Shown here piece after piece: positions 512-20,400 of a DNA stretch of 33,650 bases. A program made the position numbers and the translations under genes. The stretch is taken from IMG/VR virus record IMGVR_UViG_3300030616_000062, positions 1 through 33,650 of that record, one strand, 5' to 3'. The notes beneath the pieces were generated by a model. The model saw nothing but the letters and a program-made list of their open reading frames with translations, searched no databases and had not been told where the DNA came from. The stretch is from a virus. Numbering within the stretch: the first letter of the stretch is position 1; every line of letters starts with the position of its first letter.

Positions 512-562
512 TTAAAATATCTCGTGATTTTATCTTATAATGTATGTAAATTCATATATAAT
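512..562 (+). promoter_or_regulatory. Possible promoter(s) for the packaging genes: two TATAAT boxes
   Basis: Exact TATAAT hexamers occur at 536-541 and 557-562 within an AT-rich stretch directly upstream of the small terminase start. No good TTGACA-like -35 element sits 16-18 bases before either. AT-rich DNA gives such matches by chance, so this stays a weak call supported mainly by position after a terminator and before the first gene of a new unit. Confidence 0.25.
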
Positions 563-584
563 ACATTATTACCGACATACTACC

Positions 585-1658
585 ATGGCACAGACAGAAG
601 ATAAAGAAATCGAATACCAGACGGATTACCTGATTACGGGGGCCGCAAAGGGTTCTATCTCCGAAGCCCAACTCATTGCTATTAAAACATATATAGAGTT
701 GGGTTTTCCTTATACCAAGATAGAACGTCTTACAGGAGTACCTGCTGATACTATCGGGCGCTTAAACAGAGGTAAGTTCGGGCGTTTGCACGAAGTTGCA
801 GCTGATCCACTAATTAAAAAACATTGGGACGAGCGAAGACGCAAGTTCATTAACGCAGCGTACGCAAAAGTTGAAGACATGCTTAATTCCGTCGATGCGG
901 GTAAGATTGAAGGCGCTAACTTGAAAGACACTGTTAACTCAATAGCGGTGCTCGTGCAGCAGATTGTTAACATGGTAGGTCATTCAAAACAGACAACCGA
1001 GACGACAGAAGAAATCGGTGTCGTAAAAAACATGAGCAACGAAAAGCTTGAACAATATATCGAGTCCGCAACAAAAGCTTTAGGAGTGAATGGTGGAGTC
1101 TTGCTGCGACGTACAAGAAAAACGACCGTTGAAGAAAGCCAGGTCGGAACCCCCGAAGACGGGGAACCCTCAAACTACACTTCAAACTACGACCCCGACC
1201 CCAACAACGACAACGACAACGACCTCGACACCGGCACCGGCACAAGAAGTACAGGGGGAGAAGAACTTCCAGGAGCTGTTGCAGAAGGACTTGAAATCAC
1301 AAGCATCCCAGTCGCCCAAGTGGAAGAATCCGACGAAGAGGGAACGTCACGCGGTTCAAACCGCGCACCCGCAACTAGTATCAGCGATAATGGACGTACT
1401 AACGGGCAAGGCGGAACATCTGGACAAGCAGGTCATACAGGACCTGGTGCAGTCCTCCATGACGAGCGAGACAGCGACGGAGAAGATGGAAGAGCAAAAT
1501 TCCGTAAAGTCGCTGACGGGGTCATCAGCGCCGCAAGAGCCCACCCCCTCGAAGCAGCTAAAGTTGACTCCGACCCAGACGGAACCGGCCATACGCCAGT
1601 TTATGAAGAACCAGGAGAAAATGGAACAGAAAAGGCTCCTGGCGACGGCACTGGATGA
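585..1658 (+). CDS. Small terminase subunit-like protein with a long tail overlapping the large terminase gene
   Basis: The protein is predicted to recognise phage DNA and start packaging with the large subunit. I chose ATG 585 (MAQTEDKEIE...) rather than the in-frame ATG 540, because the extra 15 residues look untranslated; neither start has a clear Shine-Dalgarno site. Residues about 25-65 form a helix-turn-helix-like segment (AIKTYIELGFPYTKIERLTG, then VPADTIGRLNRGKFGRL), followed by a helical region to about residue 170. From about residue 170 to the end at 357 the sequence becomes Gly/Asp/Glu/Pro-rich and disordered. This tail is read over DNA that also encodes the N terminus of the large subunit in the +1 frame. 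Small terminases are usually 140-200 residues, so the tail is anomalous. It may be a true overprinted extension, an out-of-frame passenger, or the result of an indel or frameshift. The identification rests on position and the helix-turn-helix pattern. Confidence 0.6.
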   Translation: MAQTEDKEIEYQTDYLITGAAKGSISEAQLIAIKTYIELGFPYTKIERLTGVPADTIGRLNRGKFGRLHEVAADPLIKKHWDERRRKFINAAYAKVEDMLNSVDAGKIEGANLKDTVNSIAVLVQQIVNMVGHSKQTTETTEEIGVVKNMSNEKLEQYIESATKALGVNGGVLLRRTRKTTVEESQVGTPEDGEPSNYTSNYDPDPNNDNDNDLDTGTGTRSTGGEELPGAVAEGLEITSIPVAQVEESDEEGTSRGSNRAPATSISDNGRTNGQGGTSGQAGHTGPGAVLHDERDSDGEDGRAKFRKVADGVISAARAHPLEAAKVDSDPDGTGHTPVYEEPGENGTEKAPGDGTG

Positions 1659-3021
1659 ACAGTTAAGAAGAAAAGCTAGTGGAGATATCAATGCCTTTTG
1701 CATGTACGTATTCAACTGGGAAAACCAGTGGTTCCATAAGGAATGGCATTACTGCATTGACACCCACCAATATATTCTTATCATATCTCCCCGAGATCAT
1801 GGAAAGAGTTCCCAAATATCTGTTGCAAGGGTACTTTTCGAACTCGGGAGAAACCCTGACCTACGAATCAAAGTTGTCTCCCAAAGCGACCCAAGAGCCG
1901 CGAACATCCTTTCCGAAATCACAGACCATATTTTACATAACAAAAGATTACATGCCGTATTTCCAAAGCTCAAGCCCGCAAAGGGAAAGCCTTGGACGCA
2001 ACATAAGGTTTATGTACAAAGAGAAATTATTTCCAAGGATCCATCTGTTGAATCCCTTGGAATACTCAGCACTGCAACCGGTGCTCGCGCCGACCTCATT
2101 ATCTTCGACGATGTCGTTGATTTCCGAAATGCAATCCAGAATCCAAAACTCCGTGATGTTGTTAAAGAAGCCTTCTTCTCTGTCTGGGTTAATCTCTTGG
2201 AACCCGAAGGAAGGCTCGTTTACATATGCACACTATGGCACAGAGACGACCTGTCGCATGCACTTATGGCAATGGATGCATATCATACAATATTTTATTC
2301 AATTCCTGAAGGTAGTTTCGAACCCATCTGGCCTTCGAAGTGGCCAGAGGAAATGCTGAGGCGCCGTTGTGAAGAGATCGGAAAACGCGAATTCGATAGA
2401 TCATTTAGAAACATCGCCCTCTCTTCTGAAGACACGTTGTTCAAGGACGAGTTTATCGAGGCTTGCTTTGTCGATGCAGTTGCACCACCCAAGGGACTCA
2501 AAACTTTCGCTGGAGTTGACCTTGCTGCGGGGAAGGGTAAAAAAGCAAAATTCAACGTGCTCTTCACTATTGCCGTCGACAGAAAAGGCCGTCGTTGGCG
2601 ACAAGAGATCCTCAGAGGAAGATTTACCGCCCCGCAATTCGCAAGGATAATTATTGCGGCGTATGATAGATTTAACCATGAAGCAATAATGGTAGAGAAT
2701 AATGCGTACCAAGAAAGTATGATCGAATGGATGCGCGAGTTAGGAAGGAAAGATGTTCCAATTGTCGGTTTCACAACGGGCAAAAATAAGCTCGATCTCA
2801 ATATCGGCTTACCCTCACTTGCCGTTGAAATGCAAAATGGGGCGTGGGCGATACCCAGAGCGAATAAGCATGACCCGACATGCATGTGTAACGACTGTAT
2901 CTGGATTAACGAACTTCGGTCGTACCCAATCGGGGAAACGTCAGACATCGTGATGGCGCAGTGGATGGCAAAAGAAGCAGCTAGGAAGTTTATGCATAAA
3001 GGCGGTTACGAATATTGGTGA
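1090..3021 (+). CDS. terL: Large terminase subunit (ATPase/nuclease)
   Basis: This is the packaging motor: it pumps DNA through the portal using ATP and cuts the concatemer. The Walker A-like motif SPRDHGKSS is at residues 233-241. Walker B is LIIFDDV at about 336-342, and a coupling-type motif YICTLWHRDD is at about 378-387. The RNase H-like nuclease domain begins at FAGVDLAAGKG with Asp477, and IMVENN follows with the next candidate acidic residue. The ATPase core normally starts 40-70 residues before Walker A. Here about 190 extra residues precede it, including a Thr/Pro run (PTPTTTTTTTSTPAPA, about 36-51) and then more ordinary helical sequence. The extra part overlaps the small terminase frame by 569 bases. 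ATG 1090 is preceded by TAGGAG with short spacing; a later start (for example in the 1600s) is possible but has no better ribosome site. The core assignment is firm; the N terminus is not. Confidence 0.93.
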   Translation: MVESCCDVQEKRPLKKARSEPPKTGNPQTTLQTTTPTPTTTTTTTSTPAPAQEVQGEKNFQELLQKDLKSQASQSPKWKNPTKRERHAVQTAHPQLVSAIMDVLTGKAEHLDKQVIQDLVQSSMTSETATEKMEEQNSVKSLTGSSAPQEPTPSKQLKLTPTQTEPAIRQFMKNQEKMEQKRLLATALDEQLRRKASGDINAFCMYVFNWENQWFHKEWHYCIDTHQYILIISPRDHGKSSQISVARVLFELGRNPDLRIKVVSQSDPRAANILSEITDHILHNKRLHAVFPKLKPAKGKPWTQHKVYVQREIISKDPSVESLGILSTATGARADLIIFDDVVDFRNAIQNPKLRDVVKEAFFSVWVNLLEPEGRLVYICTLWHRDDLSHALMAMDAYHTIFYSIPEGSFEPIWPSKWPEEMLRRRCEEIGKREFDRSFRNIALSSEDTLFKDEFIEACFVDAVAPPKGLKTFAGVDLAAGKGKKAKFNVLFTIAVDRKGRRWRQEILRGRFTAPQFARIIIAAYDRFNHEAIMVENNAYQESMIEWMRELGRKDVPIVGFTTGKNKLDLNIGLPSLAVEMQNGAWAIPRANKHDPTCMCNDCIWINELRSYPIGETSDIVMAQWMAKEAARKFMHKGGYEYW

Positions 3022-3031
3022 GGAGTAAAAG

Positions 3032-3877
3032 ATGAAACTCGCACTTTGTATAGGTATTAACGACTATCCAGGTACTATGAATGATCTGAATTGGTGTGTT
3101 TCAGATTCAGCAGCTTGGAAACAAATGCTCGAACTTCAGGGGTTTAAAGTAACGTGGTTGACGGATAAGAATGCTACGGCGCACAACATACTCACAGAGA
3201 TATACGCGATGGCACTTGTTACCGGTGTCGAGGATGAGGTCGTTGTAACATATTCTGGGCATGGAACACAAGTGTGGGATAAAGATGGCGATGAGGCTGA
3301 TGGGTATGACGAAGCGATATGCGCCTATGATCGGAATGTGATAGATGATGAGTTCCGACAGGCGATTATGAGTTTTGAAGAGACACGCGTGACCTTCTTC
3401 TTGGATTCATGCTTCTCTGGTACATGTACTAGGAAGCGCGCGACTTCGCGCAGAAAGGCCCGTTTCATGCCGTCGGATGTTCCTTCTGGTATGAAGCCTA
3501 AGAAGAAGTTTATGTCGGGTATGCATGAGATACTTCTTTCCGGTTGTGCAGATGATGAGTATTCATATGAAGGTATGGTCGGGGATTCTGGGTGGGGGAT
3601 GTTTACGTACTACTCGATGGCTTCATACCATGAAGGTATGACCTACAGAGAATTTTATGCGAAGATACGTGAACACTTGCCTTCGAACAATTTCCCGCAG
3701 ACACCCCAGCTGGAATGTGACGAAGAGAAAAAAGATCTGGTCATGTTTGATTCGGTCGGTGGGGATGTAGAGCCTGAACCTGTGGAGGAAGAAAGTTGGT
3801 TCAAACGCAACTGGGCGTGGGTGTTGTTCATTGCATCAGTTGTGTTTTTACTATTTGTGTATTTCTTTGTTAAATGA
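3032..3877 (+). CDS. Caspase-like protease (metacaspase, peptidase C14 type) with C-terminal membrane anchor
   Basis: Predicted cysteine protease of the caspase/metacaspase fold, 281 residues. The p20-type domain starts immediately (LALCIGINDYPG). The catalytic histidine is His77 in TYSGHGTQ and the catalytic cysteine is Cys127 in FFLDSCFSG. Between them lies DEADGYDEAICAYD, matching the DGxDE signature of metacaspases, which prefer basic P1 residues and often need calcium. A p10-like half continues to about residue 240 (LLSGCADDEYSYE, WGMFTYYSM). After an acidic linker (EPEPVEEE), residues about 262-280 form a single transmembrane helix followed by a terminal Lys, so it looks tail-anchored with the protease in the cytoplasm. 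AGGAG at 3021-3025 overlaps the terminase stop, so the two genes are translationally coupled. Its target is unknown. Roles in lysis timing, virion or scaffold processing, or countering host defence are all inference. Confidence 0.9.
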   Translation: MKLALCIGINDYPGTMNDLNWCVSDSAAWKQMLELQGFKVTWLTDKNATAHNILTEIYAMALVTGVEDEVVVTYSGHGTQVWDKDGDEADGYDEAICAYDRNVIDDEFRQAIMSFEETRVTFFLDSCFSGTCTRKRATSRRKARFMPSDVPSGMKPKKKFMSGMHEILLSGCADDEYSYEGMVGDSGWGMFTYYSMASYHEGMTYREFYAKIREHLPSNNFPQTPQLECDEEKKDLVMFDSVGGDVEPEPVEEESWFKRNWAWVLFIASVVFLLFVYFFVK

Positions 3878-6541: not shown

Positions 6542-7924
6542 ATGGCTGACACCGCCGATATTACGACGTCAAACCGTAAACGTATACCCCGTACACACGC
6601 ATCAGCCCCCGGAGGGCGAGCAAAGGTGGCTGGGGTTGATACATGGAGTGAGCGACTGTATCAACGAACGGATCCTTATTCACAGACGACATCTGTTCTG
6701 CGTAAATGCTACAAAAGATCATCAACGTGCAGATGGTGTGTTGATACTATTGCACGTGAAACCGCGCATCTTCCGTGGGCGGTTGTACCTAATTATCAAG
6801 GTAAGATCAAACCACGTACTTTGAATCATATCATCGAGCTTACACATTTCTTTAACGATCCGAACGTAAATGAAGAGGCTTTTTCTGAGCTAATACAACA
6901 GATGCTTATAGATGTGTTAGTCATCGATCGTGGCATAATAGAAAAAGTATTTAACGTTGGCGGATCACTGTCAGAAATGTGGGCGCGTGATGGGGCTACG
7001 TTCCATCCACTACGGGATGTACACGGTGTAGTTCAGTCGTATGTACAGAAGTATGAAGCTGTCGATAAAAGCATCGGTTTCGAACGTGACGAGATATTCT
7101 TTATGCGGTTGGTGCCTACTACATACTCAAAGTACGGACTACCGATTATTGAGTCTATTATTAATGAAGTAGGTGCGTTACTATTCTCAATAGACTGGAT
7201 AGCAGATTCTTTTACCGAGGACGAGATCCCGCCAGGTATTTTGACTATGGGCGAAATAGGTGAGGAAGCTTATAAGCGCGCGAAAGCCGACTTCCAGCAG
7301 CAAAAAGGTATTCACGGTAAATCTCGCATACGTGTGATTGACAACGTTAAAGATGTAAAATGGATAGAATTAACACGCGCTAATGCTGAAATGCAGCTGA
7401 CCGAATTATCAGAGCGCCTCGACCGGATAGTGTACAGAAACTTCGACATTGAATACGACGTAGCTGGAGGTAACATTACGGGGTTGTCTCTTACTGAGAA
7501 GCTACAGAAGATAAAGCTAATCAAACCGTTAGCACGTAAAATTGCTTGGAAGATAAACAACGAGATACTTCCACACTTCGGGTACAACGACGTACGTTTT
7601 CAATTCGTCATACGCGATACTATTGCCGAGCAACAGAGAGCCGCAGCGTCTAAAACGTACGTAATAACTGGACAGCGTTCTATTAACGAAGAACGTGCGA
7701 AAGATGGTTATCCACCTATTACTGGAGGCGATAGACGGTTTATGCTCATAGGAAAGCGCCTTGTCTTTGTTGACGATCTTGAAGAAATGGCATCTGAGTA
7801 CTTACGTGAAGCTGGGAACAACCCGAGAGAAGGTGCGACAGAACAATCTACCGAACAAGATCAAAAAGAGACCGATACAAATAGCCCTAAAGAGACACAG
7901 CCTGTTGAAAGAACAAGGGAGTAA
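6542..7924 (+). CDS. Portal protein
   Basis: The portal forms the dodecameric channel at one capsid vertex, docks the terminase and later the neck. The 460-residue length is usual. The sequence shows the portal pattern: an early helical segment with CVDTIARETAHLPWAVVP, a middle domain with LVIDRGIIEKVFN and DEIFFMRLVPTTYSKYGLP (the portal-type Y.KYG.P element), the long stem helices (ELTRANAEMQLTELSERLDR) and a crown-like region ending in a disordered acidic tail. RSINEERAKDGYPPITGGD near the C terminus is typical of HK97/SPP1-like portals. AGGGGT precedes ATG 6542. The gene after it starts 2 bases beyond the stop. Confidence 0.9.
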   Translation: MADTADITTSNRKRIPRTHASAPGGRAKVAGVDTWSERLYQRTDPYSQTTSVLRKCYKRSSTCRWCVDTIARETAHLPWAVVPNYQGKIKPRTLNHIIELTHFFNDPNVNEEAFSELIQQMLIDVLVIDRGIIEKVFNVGGSLSEMWARDGATFHPLRDVHGVVQSYVQKYEAVDKSIGFERDEIFFMRLVPTTYSKYGLPIIESIINEVGALLFSIDWIADSFTEDEIPPGILTMGEIGEEAYKRAKADFQQQKGIHGKSRIRVIDNVKDVKWIELTRANAEMQLTELSERLDRIVYRNFDIEYDVAGGNITGLSLTEKLQKIKLIKPLARKIAWKINNEILPHFGYNDVRFQFVIRDTIAEQQRAAASKTYVITGQRSINEERAKDGYPPITGGDRRFMLIGKRLVFVDDLEEMASEYLREAGNNPREGATEQSTEQDQKETDTNSPKETQPVERTRE

Positions 7925-7926
7925 TC

Positions 7927-8523
7927 ATGGCACAAGATAATCCTGCAACAGCACCTAGTGGTGCGTCTGTGTACAAATTACGCCCGAATATGAGTCCTGC
8001 AAAGATGGACGATCAGGATTTATATTTCGCGCATTCTATGTGTCACGCGTTTTTTAGGAACATGTCCCGTGCAGTTAAAGTCGATGGCTGGACAAAAGAG
8101 ACTTTGCTCACCTATTATCGTATCGTTGTAAAAGAGATGCTTACGCGCGACATGATTGTTGTACCAACACCGGATGAATTGGGTGAATCAGTAGTTGATA
8201 TAGTACCCGAGCCAGTTCCTGTAGAGAAGGAACTGGGTGTTGAAGACGCCGGGGATTCGATGACACAGCCACGTATAGAAGGCGGTAAGAAAGCGAAGAA
8301 GAAAAAGACAACAACAAAAATAGTCGACGAAGATGAAACGCTTCCCACAGACCCTGTGGAAGTAATGGCTAAAGCATTGGCGTATTTTCAAAAGTACAAT
8401 TCGAAATCTATCTTAGCCGTTTTGCAGATAGCAGAAGAGGCTGATATGTTACGCGAGATGGAGGAAGCACAAGATGCAAAAGCCCAAGATGCTGCTAATT
8501 CTGGGGGGTCTGAGGATAGGTGA
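7927..8523 (+). CDS. Unknown protein following the portal
   Basis: I do not recognise a family. The 198-residue protein has a helical N-terminal third (YFAHSMCHAFFRNMSRAV...ETLLTYYRIVVKEML), a disordered centre with a Pro/Glu/Val region and a very basic run (GGKKAKKKKTTTK), and a helical C terminus rich in Ala, Glu and Gln. The basic run suggests nucleic acid or membrane-surface contact. GGGAG lies before ATG 7927, only 2 bases after the portal stop, so the two are coupled. Its 3' end overlaps the next gene by 50 bases. Confidence 0.7.
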   Translation: MAQDNPATAPSGASVYKLRPNMSPAKMDDQDLYFAHSMCHAFFRNMSRAVKVDGWTKETLLTYYRIVVKEMLTRDMIVVPTPDELGESVVDIVPEPVPVEKELGVEDAGDSMTQPRIEGGKKAKKKKTTTKIVDEDETLPTDPVEVMAKALAYFQKYNSKSILAVLQIAEEADMLREMEEAQDAKAQDAANSGGSEDR

Positions 8524-9325
8524 TACTTTTCATATAATACCCTTTCTTAAGAAAGCGTGTGAAAAGTACCACGTCCATTGGATTCACGGCGCATATGCAA
8601 AACATGCTGTAGAGTTTATTCGCGATCACATAGTAGGTATGGACATTTCAAATGAAGTTCGTCCTGAATTGAAATCTCTACCGGGCGGATATCCTGACGT
8701 AAAGGAGTTCGCCCTTTTAAATATGCAAGATATTGATCAATCTGCATACGATGTAGTAGTACCCCCCTTAGAAAAGATCGACGTATGGTTCCCCGATCTT
8801 GTATGCCCCAATATGACACATACGAAGTTTAATATAGCGGGCGTTGAATTCGATAGACGCACTGATGCTATTTGTGCGCTTAAAAATTCAACGGATAAAC
8901 GTGGACAGTGTAAACATGTAGTAGTACAGCCTACGACAGTGTCCGCATGGAAGTCGTCTAACGCACTATATTGTCTAGGTATAGACATATTTAACGGTCT
9001 TACTGTGTACAACGTCGGTGCAGAAAAAGAACGTACGCTCGTAGGTGTAGGGAACCTTGTAGTAAAGAACGGATGTTCTTTTGAAGAAGTAGCACGTTTA
9101 TTAATGTCGTGCGCATTTGCAGTTACATTACATAGTGCCGTCGCATGTTTAGCATATCATTTAGGTACACCATTGATATGTTGTTCTTTTATGGCAAAGG
9201 CATTCCCCTTTCAAATAGGTAGACCTAACAACACAATGCTTATTACACCGACACGCAATGCTTTAGAAGATACAATTAAAGATTACATGCAGAATCCTCG
9301 TAAACATATAAAAGAGGCCTCATAA
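8474..9325 (+). CDS. GT-B glycosyltransferase resembling the ADP-heptose transferase (GT9) family
   Basis: Predicted sugar transferase of 283 residues. The N terminus (MLLILGGLRIGDTFHIIPFL) matches the GT9 opening, a Rossmann strand followed by G-x-GD. The C-terminal half has VVQPTTVSAWKSS, the family's region after the phosphate-binding loop, and then VARLLMSCAFAVTLHSAVACLAYHLGTPLI, the nucleotide-sugar-binding segment, with LHSAV in place of the usual DSGxxH. The acceptor is unknown. GGAGG at 8460-8464 lies inside the preceding gene, 9 bases before ATG 8474; ATG 8486 is an alternative. It is the first gene of a five-gene sugar island placed between portal and protease genes. Confidence 0.75.
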   Translation: MQKPKMLLILGGLRIGDTFHIIPFLKKACEKYHVHWIHGAYAKHAVEFIRDHIVGMDISNEVRPELKSLPGGYPDVKEFALLNMQDIDQSAYDVVVPPLEKIDVWFPDLVCPNMTHTKFNIAGVEFDRRTDAICALKNSTDKRGQCKHVVVQPTTVSAWKSSNALYCLGIDIFNGLTVYNVGAEKERTLVGVGNLVVKNGCSFEEVARLLMSCAFAVTLHSAVACLAYHLGTPLICCSFMAKAFPFQIGRPNNTMLITPTRNALEDTIKDYMQNPRKHIKEAS

Positions 9326-9326
9326 A

Positions 9327-10340
9327 ATGCAGACAAGTAAAGTAGGTGTCGTAGTACCCACAATACGCGAAGAATGTATCAAAAGATTTCTGTCTGAATG
9401 GAATGAAGAATTTGAGCGTAATAATTGCACAGTGTACGTAGTGGAAGATAATGAAGATGAAACATTCGACCTACCTGCGTATAAGTATGTAAAACATTTT
9501 GCACATAGAAACATCGAAGATGCGTTGGGAAAGAACGCGTGGATAATACCCAAAAAGACCGATTGCGTCAGGTCTTTCGGATATTGGCAAGCATATCTCG
9601 ACGGCATGGATTACATTATAACACTCGATGACGATTGCTACCCACTGACAGAAGAACGCGGTCTTACTAAGTATAAAAAAGTGCAACCTCAAGGTTCTAT
9701 AGCACAACATGTTTTGAATTTGACAAACCATAACGTAACTGATGATGCGTGGGTTAGTACTATCGAAGAGATGCGTCCGCGTGGAATACCTTATATGACA
9801 AGGTTTAGGGCATTGCCTATAGTATTGAGTCATGGTCTGTGGCTTAATAATCCCGATTTAGATGCAATCACACAGCTAAGTGCAAAACAGGTTCAGTACG
9901 GTTTGATTCAGCGCATTATACCTATAGGTAAGTACTATCCTATGTGTGGTATGAATATTGCTTTTATAAAAGAGCTTACACCTATAATGTACTTTCTATT
10001 AATGGGGCGCGATTATTCTTATGATCGCTTCGGAGATATCTGGGCGGGTATATTTTCGAAACGCATAATTGATCATCTGGGTAAAGGCGTTATCTCAGGT
10101 ACTCCTATAATATGGCACGAGCGTGCATCGAATCCCTGGGATAATTTACACAAAGAGCATATAGGTTATGAAATGAACGAAGGCCTATGGTCGTTAGTTG
10201 ACGGAATACGTTTTACAGAGACGACTTATAAAGGTTGTTATATACATTTAATACAAGAATTACGTAAACTCTTAGGAGCCAAATCAGATTACTGGAAACT
10301 CACTACTAATGCGATGAATATCTGGGTCGATTTATTTTAA
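9327..10340 (+). CDS. Reversibly glycosylated polypeptide / UDP-arabinopyranose mutase homologue (GT75)
   Basis: In plants this family interconverts UDP-arabinopyranose and UDP-arabinofuranose and becomes reversibly glycosylated. The signatures align along the whole 337 residues: VVVPTIRE at the N terminus, ITLDDDCYPL with the DDD metal motif at Asp101-103 and Cys104, GIPYMTRFRALPIVLSHGLW, NNPDLDAITQL, YPMCGMNIAF, and DRFGDIWAGIFSKRIIDHLG followed by IIWHERASNPW. Arg159 aligns with the arginine reported as the glycosylated residue in plant enzymes. It therefore probably makes or transfers a furanose or related sugar nucleotide. It follows the GT9-like gene by 1 base; AGAGG precedes the start. 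Confidence 0.87.
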   Translation: MQTSKVGVVVPTIREECIKRFLSEWNEEFERNNCTVYVVEDNEDETFDLPAYKYVKHFAHRNIEDALGKNAWIIPKKTDCVRSFGYWQAYLDGMDYIITLDDDCYPLTEERGLTKYKKVQPQGSIAQHVLNLTNHNVTDDAWVSTIEEMRPRGIPYMTRFRALPIVLSHGLWLNNPDLDAITQLSAKQVQYGLIQRIIPIGKYYPMCGMNIAFIKELTPIMYFLLMGRDYSYDRFGDIWAGIFSKRIIDHLGKGVISGTPIIWHERASNPWDNLHKEHIGYEMNEGLWSLVDGIRFTETTYKGCYIHLIQELRKLLGAKSDYWKLTTNAMNIWVDLF

Positions 10341-10350
10341 GGAGTATATT

Positions 10351-11937
10351 ATGAAGACTATGGTCATCTCATGTTTGGAGCCTGAGCACCTGGTAAATTG
10401 TCTACGTGCATTAAAGATGTGGTTGCCTACAGATGATATCTATGTCATTAACAATGGTAACACAGAAAAACGCGTAACTGAGATCGCAAGAATCGCGCGG
10501 AACGCACACGTGAATTTGATACGCCCTGAATACGTAGAAGGTGAGAAGTCTACTAAACCTTTTATTCATCGTATCACGAGAGATTTCGCACAGCGATTTC
10601 CTGACGAGATTATTCTCAAGGTCGACGAAGATAACATCCTTATCTCGTCGCAGGATAATTTTTCTTTTGAACCTGGAGTATTCTTTTTTCCGCTTTCAAC
10701 AATAAACAACTACACCACCCGTATTTATCTGGAGAAATTCTGGCCCGACATACTTTTGAAACTTGAGAAATGTTCGTGGATGTGGCACGAACCCGACCCG
10801 CCGGAATTTAAGAGCGTTTTGTTTGACGCTATATATGGTGCCGAACCAAAAGAACTTATAAAGTTCGCTGAGTCTCATAGTACGCGTGAGTATATTACGC
10901 ATGAAAATTACGATAAAAAATGTTTAATGACTGACAGGGGTATTTCTACGCACGCAGTTGCTTTCCACGCGCAAGATTACATCAATAATTATGGTGTCGA
11001 CGAAGCGAATCAAGAAATGCAACTCTTTCGTTCTTTAAAAGCGGGGCGCATAAGATTTGTAATTGACAGAAGTATTTTCTGTCATCATGTAAACTATCAT
11101 TCTATTCGTGAATTAGTTCATAAAAGAAGAGATCTTGTAGATACCTTCCATACGCGTATATTTGAATATTACGAGCAGACAAAAGGCGTACGCGTCGTTT
11201 CTTCAAAATCAGACGTGTGTGTTACAATAGGATGGTATTCTGATAGTACAGGAGGCAAACGCGGTAAAACGCAGTTAGCGCCCCAGTTGTTCAAACCAGA
11301 TTACCTTGCGAGTGTGCTTGTGCCCCGTATAAAGAAACAACTCGATCCGCGTATAATTCTATTGTATGTATCACAATGTGAGATACCTCCTGACCCAATG
11401 CCCGAAGGCGTTGAGGTTATCCACGGATATAGACATGCAAAACGCGATACTGCACCGGATAGAGCATCCCCTTATGAAATCGGCGCAGCACACGATTGGG
11501 GTGCTACAATGATGGTAGGAGCACAATATGCGTATTGTAACGATTTGAATTACGTTTTTTATGAACAAGATTGTTTAGTACATAACTTTGATGGTGTCAT
11601 AAGTTGCGCTCAGGGAAAATCTATCATTTATGGGTTTGGTGAAAAAGCTTCGTATAAACAGGGATGGGCCGAACCCAGTTTGGTGTATGCATCGCGGGAG
11701 TTTTTACCGGAGATGGTTGAACGCCTTAATAAAGGTATGTGGCATCAGTGGAACGAAGGTTTTGAACGTTTCAGGAATCCTGAAAAACAGTTTCACAATA
11801 CATTCGCGGACGTAGCTGAATATTGGCCTTTTGGTTATGGTATGGTGCGTCCTATAAATTATAGCGACGATGTATATTTTGCACAAAGATTTATTGAAAA
11901 AGACTATTTAGAATTTCTGGAGCACTCACCTGTATGA
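10351..11937 (+). CDS. Two-domain glycosyltransferase-like protein (GT-A-like domain plus a novel repeated domain)
   Basis: A 528-residue protein. Residues 1 to about 280 look like a GT-A fold: MVISCLEPEHLVNCLRALK, a strand ending IYVINNGN, and IILKVDEDNIL with DxD-like Asp92-Glu93-Asp94. Residues about 286-515 are a second domain homologous to the whole of the protein encoded at 13205-13903. Shared features include IGWYSD, DWGATMMVGAQYAYCNDLN, YVFYEQDC (405-408), HQWNEG and WPFGYGMVRPINYSDD. The acid-Gln-Asp-Cys motif at a strand end resembles a metal-binding turn, so the second domain may also be a transferase, but I do not recognise its family. AAGGAG lies before ATG 10351 and the stop overlaps the next start as ATGA. 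Confidence 0.7.
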   Translation: MKTMVISCLEPEHLVNCLRALKMWLPTDDIYVINNGNTEKRVTEIARIARNAHVNLIRPEYVEGEKSTKPFIHRITRDFAQRFPDEIILKVDEDNILISSQDNFSFEPGVFFFPLSTINNYTTRIYLEKFWPDILLKLEKCSWMWHEPDPPEFKSVLFDAIYGAEPKELIKFAESHSTREYITHENYDKKCLMTDRGISTHAVAFHAQDYINNYGVDEANQEMQLFRSLKAGRIRFVIDRSIFCHHVNYHSIRELVHKRRDLVDTFHTRIFEYYEQTKGVRVVSSKSDVCVTIGWYSDSTGGKRGKTQLAPQLFKPDYLASVLVPRIKKQLDPRIILLYVSQCEIPPDPMPEGVEVIHGYRHAKRDTAPDRASPYEIGAAHDWGATMMVGAQYAYCNDLNYVFYEQDCLVHNFDGVISCAQGKSIIYGFGEKASYKQGWAEPSLVYASREFLPEMVERLNKGMWHQWNEGFERFRNPEKQFHNTFADVAEYWPFGYGMVRPINYSDDVYFAQRFIEKDYLEFLEHSPV

Positions 11938-13208
11938 TACATGTAAATCTTATTAATCCGCCGGCGACGCATCTTAAGGAACCGGGAGCTCAAGTTCCAC
12001 TGGGGATATTGTATATTGCGGCACAGCTAAAAAAATATAATTATCCTGTTGATGTTTCGAATTATAGTTTTTATATTAAAGAGAAGGCTATCGAGTTATT
12101 ACAAAAAGCTGATGTATACGGAATAACGTGTACGTCGATGCAATTGCTTGAGGTATGTAGATTTGCGAAGCTTATAAAGCAAAAATTCCCACACTCGAAA
12201 GTCATATTGGGCGGTCCGGGCACGGTAACTCCTGAATATGTTGATTGGAAGTACGTGGACTCAATTGTATTTAGAGAGGGTGAATACGAAATGTTACGCG
12301 CTTTACGTGATATTGAGAATGGCGCCCTTAATAAACGTTATACAGGAGCTTTTATTACTGACTTGGATTCATTACCAATACCTGCCAGAGAACTTGTTAA
12401 ACACCAAGGCGGTAATATATTTGCGTATGGTAAGCATTATGCTAAAGGTCAAACGACTCAAATTCTTACAAGTCGGGGGTGTCCTTTTGGTTGTGCTTTC
12501 TGCGCTGCGAAGAAATTAAATCGTGGAGTACGCACACGTAGTATCGCGTCTATCGAAGAAGAGCTCATCGATGTTATTAAACATTACGGAATACATCAAA
12601 TACGCGTTGCAGATGAGAATTTCTTTACACATAGAGGTCGTTGTATAAAAATAATTGAGTTGTTTGCAAAGTATGATATCAAGTTTAGAATTTCGACGCG
12701 TGTAACACCTTTAGATAAAGAGCTATGGCAACTCGCAAAAGAAGGTGGTCTGTGTGAATTTTCATTTGGTATTGAAAGCTTCGACGATGATGTCCTTAAA
12801 GGTCTTAATAAGAAGGCTACGGCCTCCGATAATATTAAGGCACTCGAACTTGCGCATGCGTTAGGTATTCCCGCACGTGTATTATTGATGATTCGTACAC
12901 CGTTTCAAACACGCGATACCGTACGTTTGAATATTGAAGGTTTAAAACGTGTACCTTTCGAGATTGTTGCCTGTACACACTTCGTACCAATACCGGGGTG
13001 CGACATATGGTATTATCCGAAAAGATACGGAATCAAAATTGTTGACAGGAATCTTGACCACTATAATTTTTATGGATATGGGCCTGAAGGTCGTAGGCAT
13101 TTAATGAAAATCTTCGAATACGTGGATCGCGATACTGAAGAAGTCAATAAAGAGTCAGAATACTTTTTAAACTACTTAGACAAAATGGGTAAGGTTAACC
13201 GCGGATGA
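11934..13208 (+). CDS. B12-binding-domain radical SAM enzyme
   Basis: A 424-residue enzyme with an N-terminal Rossmann-type cobalamin-binding-like domain (about 1-135: VNLINPP, PLGILYIAAQLKK, VILGGPG, IVFREGEY) and a radical SAM domain. The cluster ligands are Cys183, Cys187 and Cys190 in SRGCPFGCAFC, and downstream SAM-site features include IRVADENFF and FSFGIESFDDDVLKGLNKK. This architecture is typical of class B methyltransferases, HpnJ/BchE-like enzymes and other modifications of unactivated carbon. Within a sugar island it could methylate or rearrange a sugar or glycan, or modify a protein; the substrate is unknown. The start overlaps the upstream stop (ATGA, 11934-11937) and its own stop overlaps the next start the same way, so the three genes are translationally coupled. 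Confidence 0.88.
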   Translation: MIHVNLINPPATHLKEPGAQVPLGILYIAAQLKKYNYPVDVSNYSFYIKEKAIELLQKADVYGITCTSMQLLEVCRFAKLIKQKFPHSKVILGGPGTVTPEYVDWKYVDSIVFREGEYEMLRALRDIENGALNKRYTGAFITDLDSLPIPARELVKHQGGNIFAYGKHYAKGQTTQILTSRGCPFGCAFCAAKKLNRGVRTRSIASIEEELIDVIKHYGIHQIRVADENFFTHRGRCIKIIELFAKYDIKFRISTRVTPLDKELWQLAKEGGLCEFSFGIESFDDDVLKGLNKKATASDNIKALELAHALGIPARVLLMIRTPFQTRDTVRLNIEGLKRVPFEIVACTHFVPIPGCDIWYYPKRYGIKIVDRNLDHYNFYGYGPEGRRHLMKIFEYVDRDTEEVNKESEYFLNYLDKMGKVNRG

Positions 13209-13903
13209 GAAAAGTAGTTATAGGTACCGGATGGTACGCTGACGAAAAAGGCCACAATAATAAAAACGTTGCCTTATACGTACAGAACTCCACGTTCTTT
13301 AGAGAGATGTGGATTCCGCATATTCGTAAGCAACTAAAAGAGCAATTGGGTGCAATTGTTATTTATCAATCTGACTGTACAAGGAAAATTTTTTCGACGG
13401 GTGATAAAGACGTTATATTAATACAAGGATTACGCGCTCCAGATCAACATCATCATAATGATTCGGGAGCTACGCAAATGTCGGGTGCTATGTATGCACT
13501 GTGTAACGAGATGGATTATGTCTTTGTGGAACAAGATTGTTTTATTTTGGGTTTTTCAGGCGCCCTCTCATGGGCCCGCCAGAACTTCGTTTCGGTGGCT
13601 TTTAGTATGCATAATTATTCACAGGATTTATCACGTGGTGAACACTGTTTTATGTATGTTTCATATGAGTATTTGAAAACGTACATTACGAAGTTGATGA
13701 ACGCCAATTGGCATAAGTGGGACGAGGGGAGAGGTTTTCCAGAATTGCACGTTGTTGACATGTTTGGTAACGACGCGGCACGCTGGCCTTTTGGGTACGG
13801 ACGTAAAAGACCTATTAATTGGAACGATCATATCTTATACCTCCAGCAGCCTACGGAAGATGATCTCAAGCACGTAGAAGAGCAACTGTCCAAACGTTTT
13901 TAA
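13205..13903 (+). CDS. Stand-alone copy of the novel domain found at the C terminus of the 10351-11937 protein
   Basis: A 232-residue protein that is homologous end to end with residues about 286-515 of the two-domain protein upstream. Conserved blocks are IGTGWYADEKG, HNDSGATQMSGAMYALCNE, DYVFVEQDCF (Glu109, Asp111, Cys112), WHKWDEG and WPFGYGRKRPINWND. The conserved WPFGYG..RPIN motif and the acid-Gln-Asp-Cys turn suggest an enzyme active site, probably a nucleotide-sugar or metal site, but I know of no named family. It overlaps the radical SAM stop as ATGA (13205-13208). It is the last gene of the sugar island before a 130-base AT-rich spacer. Confidence 0.75.
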   Translation: MRKVVIGTGWYADEKGHNNKNVALYVQNSTFFREMWIPHIRKQLKEQLGAIVIYQSDCTRKIFSTGDKDVILIQGLRAPDQHHHNDSGATQMSGAMYALCNEMDYVFVEQDCFILGFSGALSWARQNFVSVAFSMHNYSQDLSRGEHCFMYVSYEYLKTYITKLMNANWHKWDEGRGFPELHVVDMFGNDAARWPFGYGRKRPINWNDHILYLQQPTEDDLKHVEEQLSKRF

Positions 13904-14033
13904 CTTTGTAATTTACTTTGTATTTAATTATCATAATAGGAAACTTAAAGAACTAAAAATATACTAAATGAATTCTCTATAACGTACTTTAACTTTGTAA
14001 AAATAAATTTCGCCAATAAATAGGAGCCTTGTT
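13904..14033. other. AT-rich spacer with a 13-base direct repeat before the protease/scaffold gene
   Basis: The 13-mer TTTAACTTTGTAA occurs at 13899-13911 and 13988-14000, flanking about 75 bases of AT-rich DNA. No hairpin terminator or clear -35/-10 pair is visible. The spacer probably carries a promoter for the capsid genes and is the only break in an otherwise gapless operon. TAGGAG at the right end is the ribosome site of the next gene. Confidence 0.4.
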
Positions 14034-15710
14034 ATGCCTTATTCCAATGTTTCAGAAGCTCCACCGCAATGGCATTCTTTAGCGAGAACGGCGGGAGGTG
14101 CTACTAAACATCCGTTAACTCTTGAACAGATTAATTACATCGCACGGGTTTACGATAGCTTAGTAGAAGGGGGTATGCCAAAGAATCGGGCTGCAGCTGC
14201 TGCTATACAGGCGTTTAGAAGTCATTATAAAGTCGTTGACGGCAAATGGGTTCGAAAAGCCTTAGAAAGTGAGTACGACGTTATCGTATCTGAAGATAAC
14301 ACTGATGTACCTTTCGACGCACCTTTTTCTATTTCTAAGTATTGGGCGGAGGATTCGAAAGCGGATGATGAAGAACCCGAAGAGAAATGGTACATCGAAG
14401 GCCGCGCAGTCATCGACAAGATGGACTACCAGAGTGATGTAGTATCTCCTATTGCGATGAAACATGCATTACCGGATCTCGAAATAAATTCGACGGTATT
14501 GTACAATCATCATCTCGATGAAGAAGTAGGCAAAATAATTGCCTATAAGTTTGACGGCGAAGCTATTTACATTAAAGTACTCGTTACGAAGACACGCCCC
14601 GATATCTGGCAAAAGATCAAAGAAGGCGTGCTTCGTAAGTTTTCAATACGCGGGCGCGTTATTTCTTTTGACATTCGCTACGTCCCGCAGCTTGATACCA
14701 TTATCAGGTATATCAAAGCTATGCACATAAATGAGATTTCTGTTGTGACAGTATCTGGTCAGGCAGAAGTCGATTTTAAGTGGTACGTAGAGAAGAAGGA
14801 TGAACCTCTTTCGTACCACATACAGAAAGCCTTCCAACATTCTCTGAAAGGAGGTGACAAACAAATGAAGAAGGCGAGAAAACAAACCCCGGAAGCACCC
14901 TTGTTCAACATCGCAAAGAATAAAGACGGTGCACAGGTGATCAGTATTCAGGTCCCTGAAGGTTTCGAAGAAAATGCCGCGGATATGGATCTGGAAGCCA
15001 TCGAAAAGGCTATCCAGAGCGCGAACGCGAACATCGGATCGATCCTACAGGCTGTGAAGTCTGTTCCTGAAGACGCATCTGAAGCTGTCAAGATTCTTTT
15101 CGGTAAGATCGAGGAAGCAGCAACGGCACTAAAGAAGAGTGGCGGTGATGACGATACCGTTGCTGATGATGATGCGGATGACGATGACGTGACCAAGAAG
15201 GCAGACGATAAGAAATCTAGCAATACCGTACAGATCGTACTGCCGGCGACTTCACAGGACGAACCTGTCGAGCTGACGAAGGAACTTCTGTCTGATCCGA
15301 ATTTCCAGGAAGCATTGCTTACGCATACACAGAAGGGTCTCAGTATGCAGGAAGCAACAAAGAAAGCAGCTGAAGATGTCGTCAAAGCACGTGAAGCCGC
15401 AGCCAATGATCCTACAGGACTGGTTAAAACCCTGATGGAGCATCTGGTAAAGAAGGATCAGGGGCTTGAAGCTGTGAACGCAGCCGTTATCAAGATGGCT
15501 GAGTTGATGAGCGGCTACGGTGCCCAGATCGACGCCTTGAAAAAGGCGGTAGACACCATCCCGGTGCGTAAGGGCGTGACACTCTCCGAAGAGCAAGTCA
15601 CCACCGAACGCGAGAAGATCCAAAAATCCATTGAGGGTAAAGAACCCCGTGAGCAGCTGCTCTCGGTATTAGGCTACGCCCTCGGTAATCAAGATTCACA
15701 GACCGCTTGA
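14034..15710 (+). CDS. Head maturation protease fused to scaffold (HK97-type prohead protease)
   Basis: A 558-residue protein. Residues about 10-75 are a short helical domain ending in DGKWVRK, seen on other phage proteases and loosely like ChaB. Residues about 115-250 are the serine protease: KWYIEGRAVIDKMDYQSDVV, then VLYNHHLDEEVGKI with catalytic His159 or His160, LRKFSIRGRV with catalytic Ser204, and HINEISVVTV. From residue 278 on it is an acidic, helical scaffold (runs such as GGDDDTVADDDADDDD, many Ala/Lys/Glu). The protease matures the procapsid by digesting scaffold and trimming capsid protein. The C-terminal part is also predicted to be made separately from an internal start at 14865. 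TAGGAG precedes ATG 14034. Confidence 0.88.
   Translation: MPYSNVSEAPPQWHSLARTAGGATKHPLTLEQINYIARVYDSLVEGGMPKNRAAAAAIQAFRSHYKVVDGKWVRKALESEYDVIVSEDNTDVPFDAPFSISKYWAEDSKADDEEPEEKWYIEGRAVIDKMDYQSDVVSPIAMKHALPDLEINSTVLYNHHLDEEVGKIIAYKFDGEAIYIKVLVTKTRPDIWQKIKEGVLRKFSIRGRVISFDIRYVPQLDTIIRYIKAMHINEISVVTVSGQAEVDFKWYVEKKDEPLSYHIQKAFQHSLKGGDKQMKKARKQTPEAPLFNIAKNKDGAQVISIQVPEGFEENAADMDLEAIEKAIQSANANIGSILQAVKSVPEDASEAVKILFGKIEEAATALKKSGGDDDTVADDDADDDDVTKKADDKKSSNTVQIVLPATSQDEPVELTKELLSDPNFQEALLTHTQKGLSMQEATKKAAEDVVKAREAAANDPTGLVKTLMEHLVKKDQGLEAVNAAVIKMAELMSGYGAQIDALKKAVDTIPVRKGVTLSEEQVTTEREKIQKSIEGKEPREQLLSVLGYALGNQDSQTA
14865..15710 (+). CDS. Nested in-frame scaffold protein (internal start within the protease gene)
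   Basis: An in-frame ATG at 14865 (MKKARKQTPEAP...) is preceded by AAAGGAGGTGA at 14847-14857, a near-perfect match to the 16S rRNA 3' end and stronger than the site of the parent gene. It would give a 281-residue protein identical to the C-terminal half of the protease fusion: helical, acidic and low in aromatic residues, as scaffolds are. This is the arrangement of lambda C/Nu3, where many copies of scaffold are made from a few copies of protease. Base composition shifts toward more G/C third positions from about this point, resembling the capsid gene. Confidence 0.75.
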   Translation: MKKARKQTPEAPLFNIAKNKDGAQVISIQVPEGFEENAADMDLEAIEKAIQSANANIGSILQAVKSVPEDASEAVKILFGKIEEAATALKKSGGDDDTVADDDADDDDVTKKADDKKSSNTVQIVLPATSQDEPVELTKELLSDPNFQEALLTHTQKGLSMQEATKKAAEDVVKAREAAANDPTGLVKTLMEHLVKKDQGLEAVNAAVIKMAELMSGYGAQIDALKKAVDTIPVRKGVTLSEEQVTTEREKIQKSIEGKEPREQLLSVLGYALGNQDSQTA

Positions 15711-15726: not shown

Positions 15727-16656
15727 ATGGTCGACATTCGTAAAGCCCTCGGGCAAACTGACGCAGGCTCGGTTCTTATACAGCCTGAGATCGACAAAGT
15801 GCTTCAGCACCTCGTCGAGTACAAGAACCCCTTGCGGCAGAATCTGCCCCGTAAGCGCGGATCAGGACCTTCATGGTATCTGAACCGCAGATCCGCCGGA
15901 TCAACCGGCGCGCAGTTCGTCGGGGATAAGGATACCATCGATGAGGATCAGGGAAGCTACGCCCGTGTGGAATTCGGGTACAAAACCATTGCTGCTAAAG
16001 GCAAGGTGACCCGAAGGATGCAGGCAATCGGACGGAGCTATATGGACATCCTGGCTGAAGAAATCGAAGCACGAACGCTTGAGTTCAAGGACTATGAAGA
16101 CTGGGCGCTGTTCAGAGGTAGCACCAGCACTAGCGCGAATCAGTTCGACGGTCTCGATCGTTTGATTACCCAGACTGTAACGTGTGCAACCAGTACCAGC
16201 GCCGGTCCTCTGACGCTTGCGAAACTGGATGAGGCGATTGATACATGTACAGGTGATCCGAACATGATCATCGCATCGAAACGTACACGCCGAGTACTGA
16301 ACCAGCTCTTGCAGTCCGCACAGCGTTTTGTTAACGTTGTTGAGGTGAAAGGTGGATTTAAGGTGATGTCATACAATGGCATTCCTATTTTCACATCGTC
16401 CAACATCGTTGATACGATGCTTATGGCATCCGGTGGGGCATCCGTTGCTGCATACACCGGAGGCGATGCATCTACGCTGTATGTTCTCGATACTGAGTAT
16501 GTGTGGGTTGGCGAATTAACGCCCCTGAGCATCTTACCTCTCGCTAAGGTAAGCTCGCAGTACGACGAGTTCGATATCTACTGCGATCAGGCGTTAGTTA
16601 TGGCAAACGCGCAGAAGCATACTTCAGTGATCGGTATTTCTGGAAGCACTACCTAA
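15727..16656 (+). CDS. Major capsid protein
   Basis: A 309-residue HK97-fold shell protein, made in hundreds of copies. Evidence is its place directly after the scaffold, a very strong ribosome site (AGAGGAGGTGA before ATG 15727), and sequence features of the fold: an N-arm (IRKALGQTDAGSVLIQPEID), a spine-like region with SYMDILAEEIEARTLEFKDYEDWALFRGS, and a P-domain with MIIASKRTRRVLNQLLQSAQR and VMSYNGIPIFTSSNI. The C terminus (AKVSSQYDEFDIYCDQALVM) resembles other short capsid proteins without a large insertion domain. No separate delta-domain is obvious, consistent with the scaffold being a separate protein. Confidence 0.87.
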   Translation: MVDIRKALGQTDAGSVLIQPEIDKVLQHLVEYKNPLRQNLPRKRGSGPSWYLNRRSAGSTGAQFVGDKDTIDEDQGSYARVEFGYKTIAAKGKVTRRMQAIGRSYMDILAEEIEARTLEFKDYEDWALFRGSTSTSANQFDGLDRLITQTVTCATSTSAGPLTLAKLDEAIDTCTGDPNMIIASKRTRRVLNQLLQSAQRFVNVVEVKGGFKVMSYNGIPIFTSSNIVDTMLMASGGASVAAYTGGDASTLYVLDTEYVWVGELTPLSILPLAKVSSQYDEFDIYCDQALVMANAQKHTSVIGISGSTT

Positions 16657-17068: not shown

Positions 17069-17452
17069 ATGGGTATAACCAACGTTGCACGTAGAGATTC
17101 AAATGGTACTCCTTGTTTATTGGGGTATGATGGTACAGACGTCCGAGTAATTAGGTGCGACTCGGAAGGTCACATTTATATTAATTCAGTTCCCGCAGCT
17201 GGCACACCTGAACACCATAACGGTACTGTCGGTACTAGTGCATCCGACATTACGTTTGGTGGGACTACTTCCAATATAAATATTCATAATACACACGGTT
17301 CTAATGACCTATTAATTTCTTTTGATAGTGGGTCTACTTGGTATACAATGGAAGCGGGCTCATACTGGAATTTGAATGCAAGTGTAGCATCTTTACAGAT
17401 AAAGGGAAGCACCGCAGGCACCACTTATGAAATGGTTGCGGTGATTGCTTAA
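17069..17452 (+). CDS. Small beta-rich virion-like protein (possible head decoration or fibre-base protein)
   Basis: A 127-residue protein with no signal peptide. The N terminus (ARRDSNGTPCLLGYDGTDVR, then a DSEGHIYIN strand) matches a motif I know from many phage virion proteins of the form R-x-x-NGxPxLLxxS...DGxxxxxxxVDxxTHxL. The rest is Ser/Thr/Gly-rich beta sequence (SNINIHNTHGSNDLLISFDS) ending in YEMVAVIA. Placement just after the capsid gene fits a decoration or fibre-attachment protein. AGGAG lies before ATG 17069. Confidence 0.6.
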   Translation: MGITNVARRDSNGTPCLLGYDGTDVRVIRCDSEGHIYINSVPAAGTPEHHNGTVGTSASDITFGGTTSNINIHNTHGSNDLLISFDSGSTWYTMEAGSYWNLNASVASLQIKGSTAGTTYEMVAVIA

Positions 17453-17477
17453 TATAAAATATTTAGGAGTATTTGCT

Positions 17478-20400
17478 ATGAAACGCTTTTTGTATTACGT
17501 AGGTTTGATAGGTGTACTTTTTGTTTTAGCAGGCACCAGTCTAAGCCAGTCACGTGATCCGAAGATAGTCATACAGAGAGCTGATACCCTCGCACTACAA
17601 GGATATTTCTCCTTTACAGGTGATGCAGGACGCTTTGAGATCCCGGGGGGTACTACACTACCTTCATCGGCCGTAGCAGGCATGCTTTTTTACAAGTCTG
17701 ATACGAAAGTCGTATACTTTTATAATGGAGCTTCATGGGTTGCATTTTCCTCCGGAGTGGCTGGAGATTACCTAACTAAGGATGGCACGACGGCGTTGAC
17801 AGGTGAGTGGGATGCGGGTACGTTTGAGATTATATCGGATACGCTCAATGCAGAGGATAAATTATTTGTAAACTCCTATTCCGTATACGATACGTTAGTT
17901 GCCCACCGACAAGTATATGTGAACAGAGATTCTATTGAAGTCCACACCTCAATCCTATATAATATAAGAGATACATATTTAACAGGAAACGAATCTATTA
18001 CATTGTCAGGGGATGTTTCTGGGTCTGGAACTACAGCTATAAATGTTACCATAGCAAGTAACGCTATTGAAGAGAGTATGCTTAAAGCGGTTAACGCTTC
18101 GACTGATGAAGATATTCTCACGTATGAAGCGGCGACCGGGGATTTTGAATGGCACACACCCGCCGAGCTCGGACTTGGAGGCTCTCAAGACTTTGCTGAT
18201 GTTTTAGGTAAAGATCCAGACGCTAATGATGTTGATATTACTTCTCTTGGCAAGCTTGAGTTCTTCGACGCAGGTTTATATCTCGATGCAGATGCTGATG
18301 GTGTAATGGATATAACATCCGATGGTACACTTGAATTACACTCTGCAGACTGGGATATATCTACTACAGGTGAGATAACAAATGCAAGTGGTAGTAACAG
18401 TCAATGGACAAATGATGAAGGTTATATAACTGCGACTTTAACACAAGAAGAAGTTGAAGACTATGCCGGAGGTTTATGGACAGGAAACACAGAAACTGGT
18501 GCTACAGTAACATATCAAGAAGCAGACAATACTTTAGATATCGTAATTGACCACGATGCTGCAAATAACTTTGAAGCGAATGAACATATTGATTGGACAC
18601 AGGATCAAGGTGCTACAAATATTCATTCTGGTAATTATACCGATACAAATACACAACTTTCTCAAGCTGAAGTCGAAGACTATGCTGGGGGTTTATGGAC
18701 AGGAAATACTGAAACAAACATAACTGTCACCTATCAAGAAGACGATAATACACTTGATATTGCATTAGATGCAGCTGCTACTCTTGATGAAGAATGGAAT
18801 ACTGAAGGCGAAGTAGAAACAGTTTGGGGTTCTGTCAATATACTTCTGGAAACTGAAATCGATGCTTCTAGTGAGTTGCTTGCTCTTATGGATGACGAAA
18901 CTGGTACTGGATTACTTGTGTTTGCTACTGCACCCACATTTACTACATCCATTACAATGGGAGATGCAGAACTTAGTGAAGCAGAGTTAGAAATACTTGA
19001 CGGAGCAACTGCTTCTACTGCAGACCTGAATATTATAGATGGTATAAGTGATTCAGGAGATCTAACTGCGGCAGAACTGTTGTATGTTGATGGTGTTACC
19101 TCCTCAATACAAGACCAAATAAATGCTATAGGAGCACCAGACTTTGCTGATGTTTTAGGTGAAGATCCAGACGCTAATGATGTTGATATTACTTCTCTTG
19201 GCAAGCTTGAGTTCTTCGACGCAGGTTTATATCTCGATGCAGATGCTGATGGTGTAATGGATATAACATCCGATGGTACACTTGAATTACACTCTGCAGA
19301 CTGGGATATATCTACTACAGGTGAGATAACAAATGCAAGTGGTAGTAACAGTCAATGGACAAATGATGAAGGTTATATAACTGCGACTTTAACACAAGAA
19401 GAAGTTGAAGACTATGCCGGAGGTTTATGGACAGGAAACACAGAAACTGGTGCTACAGTAACATATCAAGAAGCAGACAATACTTTAGATATCGTAATTG
19501 ACCACGATGCTGCAAATAACTTTGAAGCGAATGAACATATTGATTGGACACAGGATCAAGGTGCTACAAATATTCATTCTGGTAATTATACCGATACAAA
19601 TACACAACTTTCTCAAGCTGAAGTCGAAGACTATGCTGGGGGTTTATGGACAGGAAATACTGAAACAAACATAACTGTCACCTATCAAGAAGACGATAAT
19701 ACACTTGATATTGCATTAGATGCAGCTGCTACTCTTGATGAAGAATGGAATACTGAAGGCGAAGTAGAAACAGTTTGGGGTTCTGTCAATATACTTCTGG
19801 AAACTGAAATCGATGCTTCTAGTGAGTTGCTTGCTCTTATGGATGACGAAACTGGTACTGGATTACTTGTGTTTGCTACTGCACCCACATTTACTACATC
19901 CATTACAATGGGAGATGCAGAACTTAGCGAAGCGGAGTTAGAAATACTTGACGGGGCAACTGCTTCTACTGCAGACCTGAATATTATAGATGGTATAAGT
20001 GATTCAGGAGATCTAACCGCGGCAGAACTGTTGTACGTAGACGGGGTTACCTCTTCAATACAAACGCAACTGGGTAATATGTTAAATAAGGATGGCACTG
20101 TAGGATTGACGGGCGACTGGGATGCGGGGGATTACGAAGTCGAAGCAAATAAATTATATGTGACGGTGAACGGCGCTGCGATAACGGCTGAGACAAGTGC
20201 GTTACAAACTACCTTTACGAAGTCTGGGGGCGATACCGACGATGCAGACGATATCTGGGGTGCAAATATTGCAACGACGATGAACGACGGCGATGAAACA
20301 ATTGGATATCTTACAGGATTGCGTGTGTTTACGCGTTTACAGGATGGTACAATAGGCGCGGGCACAGAAGACTATCGAGGTATTTATAACGAACTCGAAT

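Follow-up and report, generated by a model that had tools for sequence, protein, structure and literature searches.

Between the portal and prohead protease genes of a 33,650-base viral record (henceforth the window), there is an island of five plus-strand genes (8474-13903) that constitutes a maintained unit, recurring in related phages beyond what chance would produce. A role for the island in sugar chemistry is well supported by the catalytic residues of a GT75 homolog, the GT-A fold predicted for a duplicated domain, and the gene neighborhoods in which the homologs occur. On balance, we favor, with confidence that is evenly poised, the reading that it is a late cassette that would make a glycan containing a furanose-type sugar tailored by a radical SAM enzyme, with virion proteins as the most likely acceptor. 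Within the open-license literature, this combination of enzymes at a head-gene site appears undescribed.

The island comprises five intact open reading frames, at 8474-9325, 9327-10340, 10351-11937, 11934-13208, and 13205-13903. They code, respectively, for a GT9-like (GT-B) glycosyltransferase candidate (gene 1; 283 aa), a homolog of the GT75 (RGP/NDP-pyranose mutase) family (gene 2; 337 aa), a 528-aa protein with a possibly GT2-like N-terminal domain (residues 1 to 285) and a predicted GT-A-fold C-terminal domain (residues 289 to 528) (gene 3), a cobalamin-binding class B-type radical SAM enzyme (gene 4; 424 aa), and a stand-alone copy of the gene 3 C-terminal domain (gene 5; 232 aa). Gene 1 overlaps the head-module gene before it by 50 nt, and the subsequent spacings are +1, +10, -4, and -4 nt, the last two being ATGA overlaps; the tight packing reported in a first-pass annotation of this DNA is thus borne out. 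The placement between portal and protease given there also holds, with the qualification that a 198-aa head-module gene (7927-8523, plus strand), conserved in both relatives described below, intervenes after the portal gene (6542-7924, plus strand; PF04860, E = 1.7e-23). On the other side, a 130-nt gap separates gene 5 from the protease gene (14034-15710, plus strand; PF04586, E = 2.7e-5), beyond which lies the gene for the major capsid protein (MCP; 15727-16656, plus strand).

Relatives were found by alignment-based scans of IMG/VR, single-sequence queries being insufficient: genes 2 and 5, used in this way against viral contigs, gave no match, and tblastn with genes 1 and 3 recovered no relative in named phages. 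In L003 and L012, the scans retrieved all five genes, with order and site unchanged. The lineage count is three, including the window, the L003 and L004 records being identical over 20.7 kb and L066 being a shorter copy of L012 (99.6% identical). The island orthologs share 52 to 75% protein identity with the window (59 to 69% for gene 1 in the two relatives), and the corresponding values for the flanking proteins are 63 to 72% for the portal, 63% for the protease, and 83% for the MCP. Across the island, third codon positions differ at 0.52-0.60 of sites, which is near saturation, as against 0.12-0.30 for second positions, with no stop codons, a pattern that points to purifying selection. Complete in three lineages and conserved like the portal, the set is therefore a maintained unit and not degenerate cargo. 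Conservation as a unit, without scatter or degeneration in relatives, had been set beforehand as a test of the proposal, and order, site, and intact frames in L003 and L012 all speak for it. Further, in a tree of 43 phage GT75 proteins, those of the island form a single clade (support, 98/98).

These observations bear on a different explanation, namely, that the genes are late-module cargo that acts on host metabolism or defense molecules and serves neither the virion nor the surface. Portal/capsid surroundings of Leptospira LE3, Paenibacillus C7Cdelta, and Pseudomonas Ab18, which have distantly related capsid proteins, gave no match to profiles of the five gene families, and this absence of the island from distant head-module relatives is what cargo might be expected to show. 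The G+C content of the island (0.39-0.41) is also slightly under that of the portal (0.44) and protease (0.47) genes (MCP, 0.52); however, the tail genes are equally low (0.39-0.42), and the island is therefore not marked as foreign by its composition. As all five genes have long been coconserved with head genes, we regard the cargo explanation as quite unlikely.

The best-defined component of the proposed glycan cassette is gene 2, which matches PF03214 over its full length (positions 2 to 336 of 342; 165.9 bits against a cut-off of 23.8; E = 1.8e-48), in agreement with its initial annotation as a UDP-arabinopyranose mutase homolog. Its nearest solved structures are MtdL-type enzymes (7yua/7xpr) and the plant UDP-arabinopyranose mutase (UAM; 8cid). 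When compared with the functional residues of MtdL (taken from PMC9937993), D101-103, H264, R152, D177, and D237 of gene 2 align with D109-111, H287, R159, D195, and D260. It thus shares with plant UAM/RGP and bacterial MtdL and Hyg20 the full-length RGP domain, the Mn-binding DDD and His, the autoglycosylated (nucleophile) Arg, and the equivalents of D195, D260, and R257. R152, D177, D237, and H264 are invariant among the 43 phage homologs; in MtdL numbering, equivalents of R159, R90, D111, D195, D260, and H287 are present in 43/43, that of D109 is present in 42/43, and those of D110 and R257 are each present in 39/43. Judged by these features, gene 2 is a clear GT75 homolog that keeps the reported catalytic residues. 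It departs from MtdL in having CGMN at the S228/Q229 site and a proline (Pro11) at the T13 site; as both positions are plant-like rather than MtdL-like, the nucleotide used is not readable from the sequence. It is further distinguished from the known GT75 enzymes by being encoded inside a phage head module.

GT75 genes were found in 47 IMG/VR loci and in the 595-kb phage genome LR756511, and none of the 296 sampled from the bacterial phylum had one above the cut-off. In LR756511, the adjoining genes are, from inspection of their sequences, ones that we take to be sulfotransferase-like and methyltransferase-like. Of 56 immediate neighbors of GT75 scanned in phage contigs, 12 match GT2, 6 match epimerase/GDP-mannose dehydratase, and 5 match Methyltransf_24. 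A radical SAM gene is present in 4 of the 46 phage records with GT75 and is hence not an obligate partner. In L027, which falls on a different branch of the tree, a B12-binding radical SAM gene immediately precedes GT75 in a cluster that also codes for a UDP-glucose/GDP-mannose dehydrogenase, an FkbM methyltransferase, a sulfotransferase, and a GT2 protein and that is followed directly by the gene for a candidate (DUF2213) head protease. L027 thus provides a second, independent occurrence of the pairing near head genes in a different phage lineage. The statement that head modules rarely hold metabolic genes accordingly needs tempering, as this distinct GT75/radical SAM/glycosyltransferase cluster likewise precedes a candidate head protease.

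The neighborhoods also raise the prospect that the cassette alters the glycans of the host surface, either toward the end of infection or during lysogeny, with receptor masking or superinfection exclusion as the outcome. Phage glycosyltransferases of the GtrB kind act in this way (PMC12619734), and matches to the GtrB-like phrog_841 were found both among GT75 neighbors and in the window protein encoded at 26008-28329 (plus strand), a 773-aa GT2-repeat and TPR protein of the tail-side module. A search of the five island proteins for a long, strongly hydrophobic stretch found none, and hence there is no flippase among them; moreover, in each of the three lineages the island lies within the head module, and no integrase was recognized in the window or in the genes examined of the 61-kb relative G001. 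We therefore consider a host-surface role unlikely. The 26008-28329 protein has a counterpart among the tail-side genes of G001 (L008 2845-5172); its retention is consistent with sugar chemistry being spread through the structural operon, and it is a possible functional partner of the island.

Gene 4 has a B12-binding domain (PF02310, E = 1.6e-11) followed by a radical SAM domain (PF04055, E = 4.5e-23) in which the CxxxCxxC motif reads CPFGCAFC, confirming its assignment as a B12-type radical SAM protein. This architecture is shared with PhpK, HpnR, CysS, TokK, and AprD4, and the nearest solved structures are AprD4, CysS, and TokK. Many models of such enzymes match gene 4, radical SAM families being prone to generic cross-matching, but its scores against the named NCBIfam equivalogs (PhpK, HpnR, BchE, and others) are all far below the cut-off, the best being 90 bits against a cut-off of 600 (PhpK). 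It also matches the PADLOC candidate model PDC-M51A (E = 1.7e-13), which could be cited in favor of the cargo explanation but is subject to the same generic cross-matching. The two characterized bacterial GT75 enzymes, MtdL and Hyg20, work in antibiotic pathways (A201A and hygromycin; PMC9937993), and AprD4, CysS, and TokK are natural-product enzymes, precedents that would suit a cassette whose product is a diffusible glycosylated small molecule. With no scaffold-building, export, or resistance gene recognized in the island, and with its location in a structural module, such a product seems to us most improbable.

The enzymes presumed to attach sugars in a glycan cassette would be genes 1, 3, and 5. 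As originally proposed, gene 5 duplicates the C-terminal half of gene 3, with which it is 32% identical across 234 aligned columns (E = 4e-35). The description of this duplicated domain as novel does not extend to its fold: modeling of the gene 3 version (pLDDT mostly 75 to 89, with weak loops) predicts a GT-A fold, with Z scores of about 11 to 13 to GT-A nucleotide-sugar enzymes and nucleotidyltransferases, the fold being common to both. Since the GT-A fold includes nucleotidyltransferases, we infer transferase activity only provisionally. An EQDC motif is invariant in the domain and follows the strand ending at residue 405, the usual place of the DxD motif; its acidic residues are spaced as in DxD, but the first is a Glu and the canonical DxD is absent. 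Among the Foldseek matches of the gene 3 model is the capsid glycosyltransferase of chlorovirus PBCV-1 (PDB 2p72/2p73), also of the GT-A fold; it comes from a eukaryotic virus, and with about 8% identity the likeness is at the level of the fold alone. The domain was found in 1 of the 296 sampled from the bacterial phylum, and the one bacterial relative, from an uncultured Ignavibacteriae metagenome-assembled genome, keeps the EQDC and PFGYGR motifs and lies in a cluster with glycosyltransferase genes. From inspection of their sequences, we take other genes of this cluster to be gmd/fcl-like. Thus, a previously unnamed duplicated domain gains a predicted GT-A fold assignment. The N-terminal domain of gene 3 yielded a predicted structure of poor quality and a weak GT2 hint in the L003 ortholog only (PF00535, E = 0.075), and profile comparison linked it neither to RGP nor to the C-terminal domain of the same protein. 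L003 additionally has, immediately upstream of the portal gene (L003 3975-5322), an unassigned 211-aa gene and an extra solo GT-A domain, both of which are absent from the window.

The window version of gene 1 has no Pfam match, and its L003 ortholog scores below the cut-off against PF01075 (E = 0.12; 12.2 bits against 22). However, profile alignment (hhalign) with GT9 gave probabilities of 61 to 80% over 95 to 106 columns of the donor-binding domain, with controls at no more than 0.7%. The pattern resembles the donor-binding region of GT9 heptosyltransferases, from which gene 1 differs in being shorter and in lying under the Pfam cut-off. Its AlphaFold (AF2) model is poor (pLDDT, 41). The GT9-like label thus survives for gene 1 as a tentative, profile-level similarity. 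A neighbor of the bacterial GT-A relative (L061:8577-9338) itself looks GT9-like, but profile comparison did not relate it to gene 1; the bacterial pair is therefore not a counterpart of a two-gene unit in the island.

Taken as a glycan-synthesis cassette, the five genes would be cotranscribed, with the late timing suggested by their position. The GT75 enzyme, going by its family and residues, would convert a host NDP-pyranose to an NDP-furanose; the island has no gene for NDP-sugar synthesis, and the cell is therefore assumed to provide the NDP-sugar. The B12 radical SAM enzyme may then C-methylate or otherwise change the sugar or its carrier, and the GT-B-like enzyme and the predicted GT-A domains could attach sugars sequentially. 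Given the arrangement of the cassette alongside genes for portal, protease, and capsid, and the soluble appearance of its enzymes, a virion structural protein is the most likely acceptor, gene position being the sole argument for this choice. Particles so decorated might evade recognition or attach better. Of the original suggestion that a glycan is made during assembly for the virion or the host surface, the sugar role stands, and the acceptor is read from gene position. Phage DNA is another conceivable acceptor, as phage RB69 has arabinosylated DNA (PMC6024577), and the enzymes might generate arabinosyl- or other hypermodified bases. No base-modifying enzyme was recognized among the replication genes scanned in G001 (primase, DnaB, RuvC, and gp32-like), and the cassette is located with head genes; we hold DNA glycosylation to be very unlikely.

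The virion reading has precedents, in that glycosylation of virions and host surfaces by phages is already known (PMC12619734 and its references). In mycobacteriophages, for instance, the capsid and tail-tube subunits carry glycans (Freeman et al. 2023, cited in PMC12619734). The acceptor has been demonstrated there, whereas for the island a virion acceptor is proposed. We know of no GT75 or radical SAM enzyme in the mycobacteriophage system. The open-license literature yielded nothing linking RGP or UAM with phages, that is, no description of a phage GT75, and its titles revealed no radical SAM/glycosyltransferase head cassette. What was put forward as an undescribed system is thus new, in that literature, as an enzyme combination at the head site and not as phage virion or host glycosylation in itself. 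It is a more doubtful proposition, which we entertain tentatively, that the island encodes a previously undescribed kind of pathway dedicated to virion glycosylation, in which a cobalamin radical SAM enzyme alters a furanose-type sugar that is put on the phage's own head proteins during assembly. If true, phage glycosylation, previously a matter of single transferases, would come to include a small pathway in which a sugar ring is contracted and radical chemistry is used, GT75, so far mainly of plants and two antibiotic pathways, would be common in phages, and the island would offer new enzymes for testing, both furanosyl-transferring ones and B12 radical SAM ones.

Several other features of the window and its relatives deserve mention. 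The gap after the island (window 13904-14033; L003 12713-12843) is 130 nt long and AT-rich and begins with the conserved CTTTGTAATTTACTTTGTA; in L012, it is only 3 nt long. The motif TAnnTTTG occurs 27 times on the plus strand against 13 expected, and 13 times on the minus strand; one of the plus-strand sites lies in the gap, and another overlaps the gap's start. Between the terminase and portal genes, a caspase-like peptidase (3032-3877; PF00656, E = 7e-24) has a hydrophobic C-terminal stretch, and no match to it was found among the L003 ORFs compared. A 1,534-aa protein (17445-22049) has long internal repeats, and a start codon shortly inside its frame would give a signal-peptide-like N terminus; its similarity to L003 is confined to roughly the first 90 aa, and the protein is therefore fast evolving. 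The late region of G001 has a sulfatase-like gene (L009 4746-5519; PF00884, just under the cut-off). Finally, the terminase frame has no stop across about 570 nt of the terminase-small-like gene before it, which is read in another frame (window 540-1658 and 1090-3021), and in G001 the corresponding open stretch covers about 800 nt (L100 80-1423 and 624-2786); either the two frames overlap at length or the terminase starts very late.
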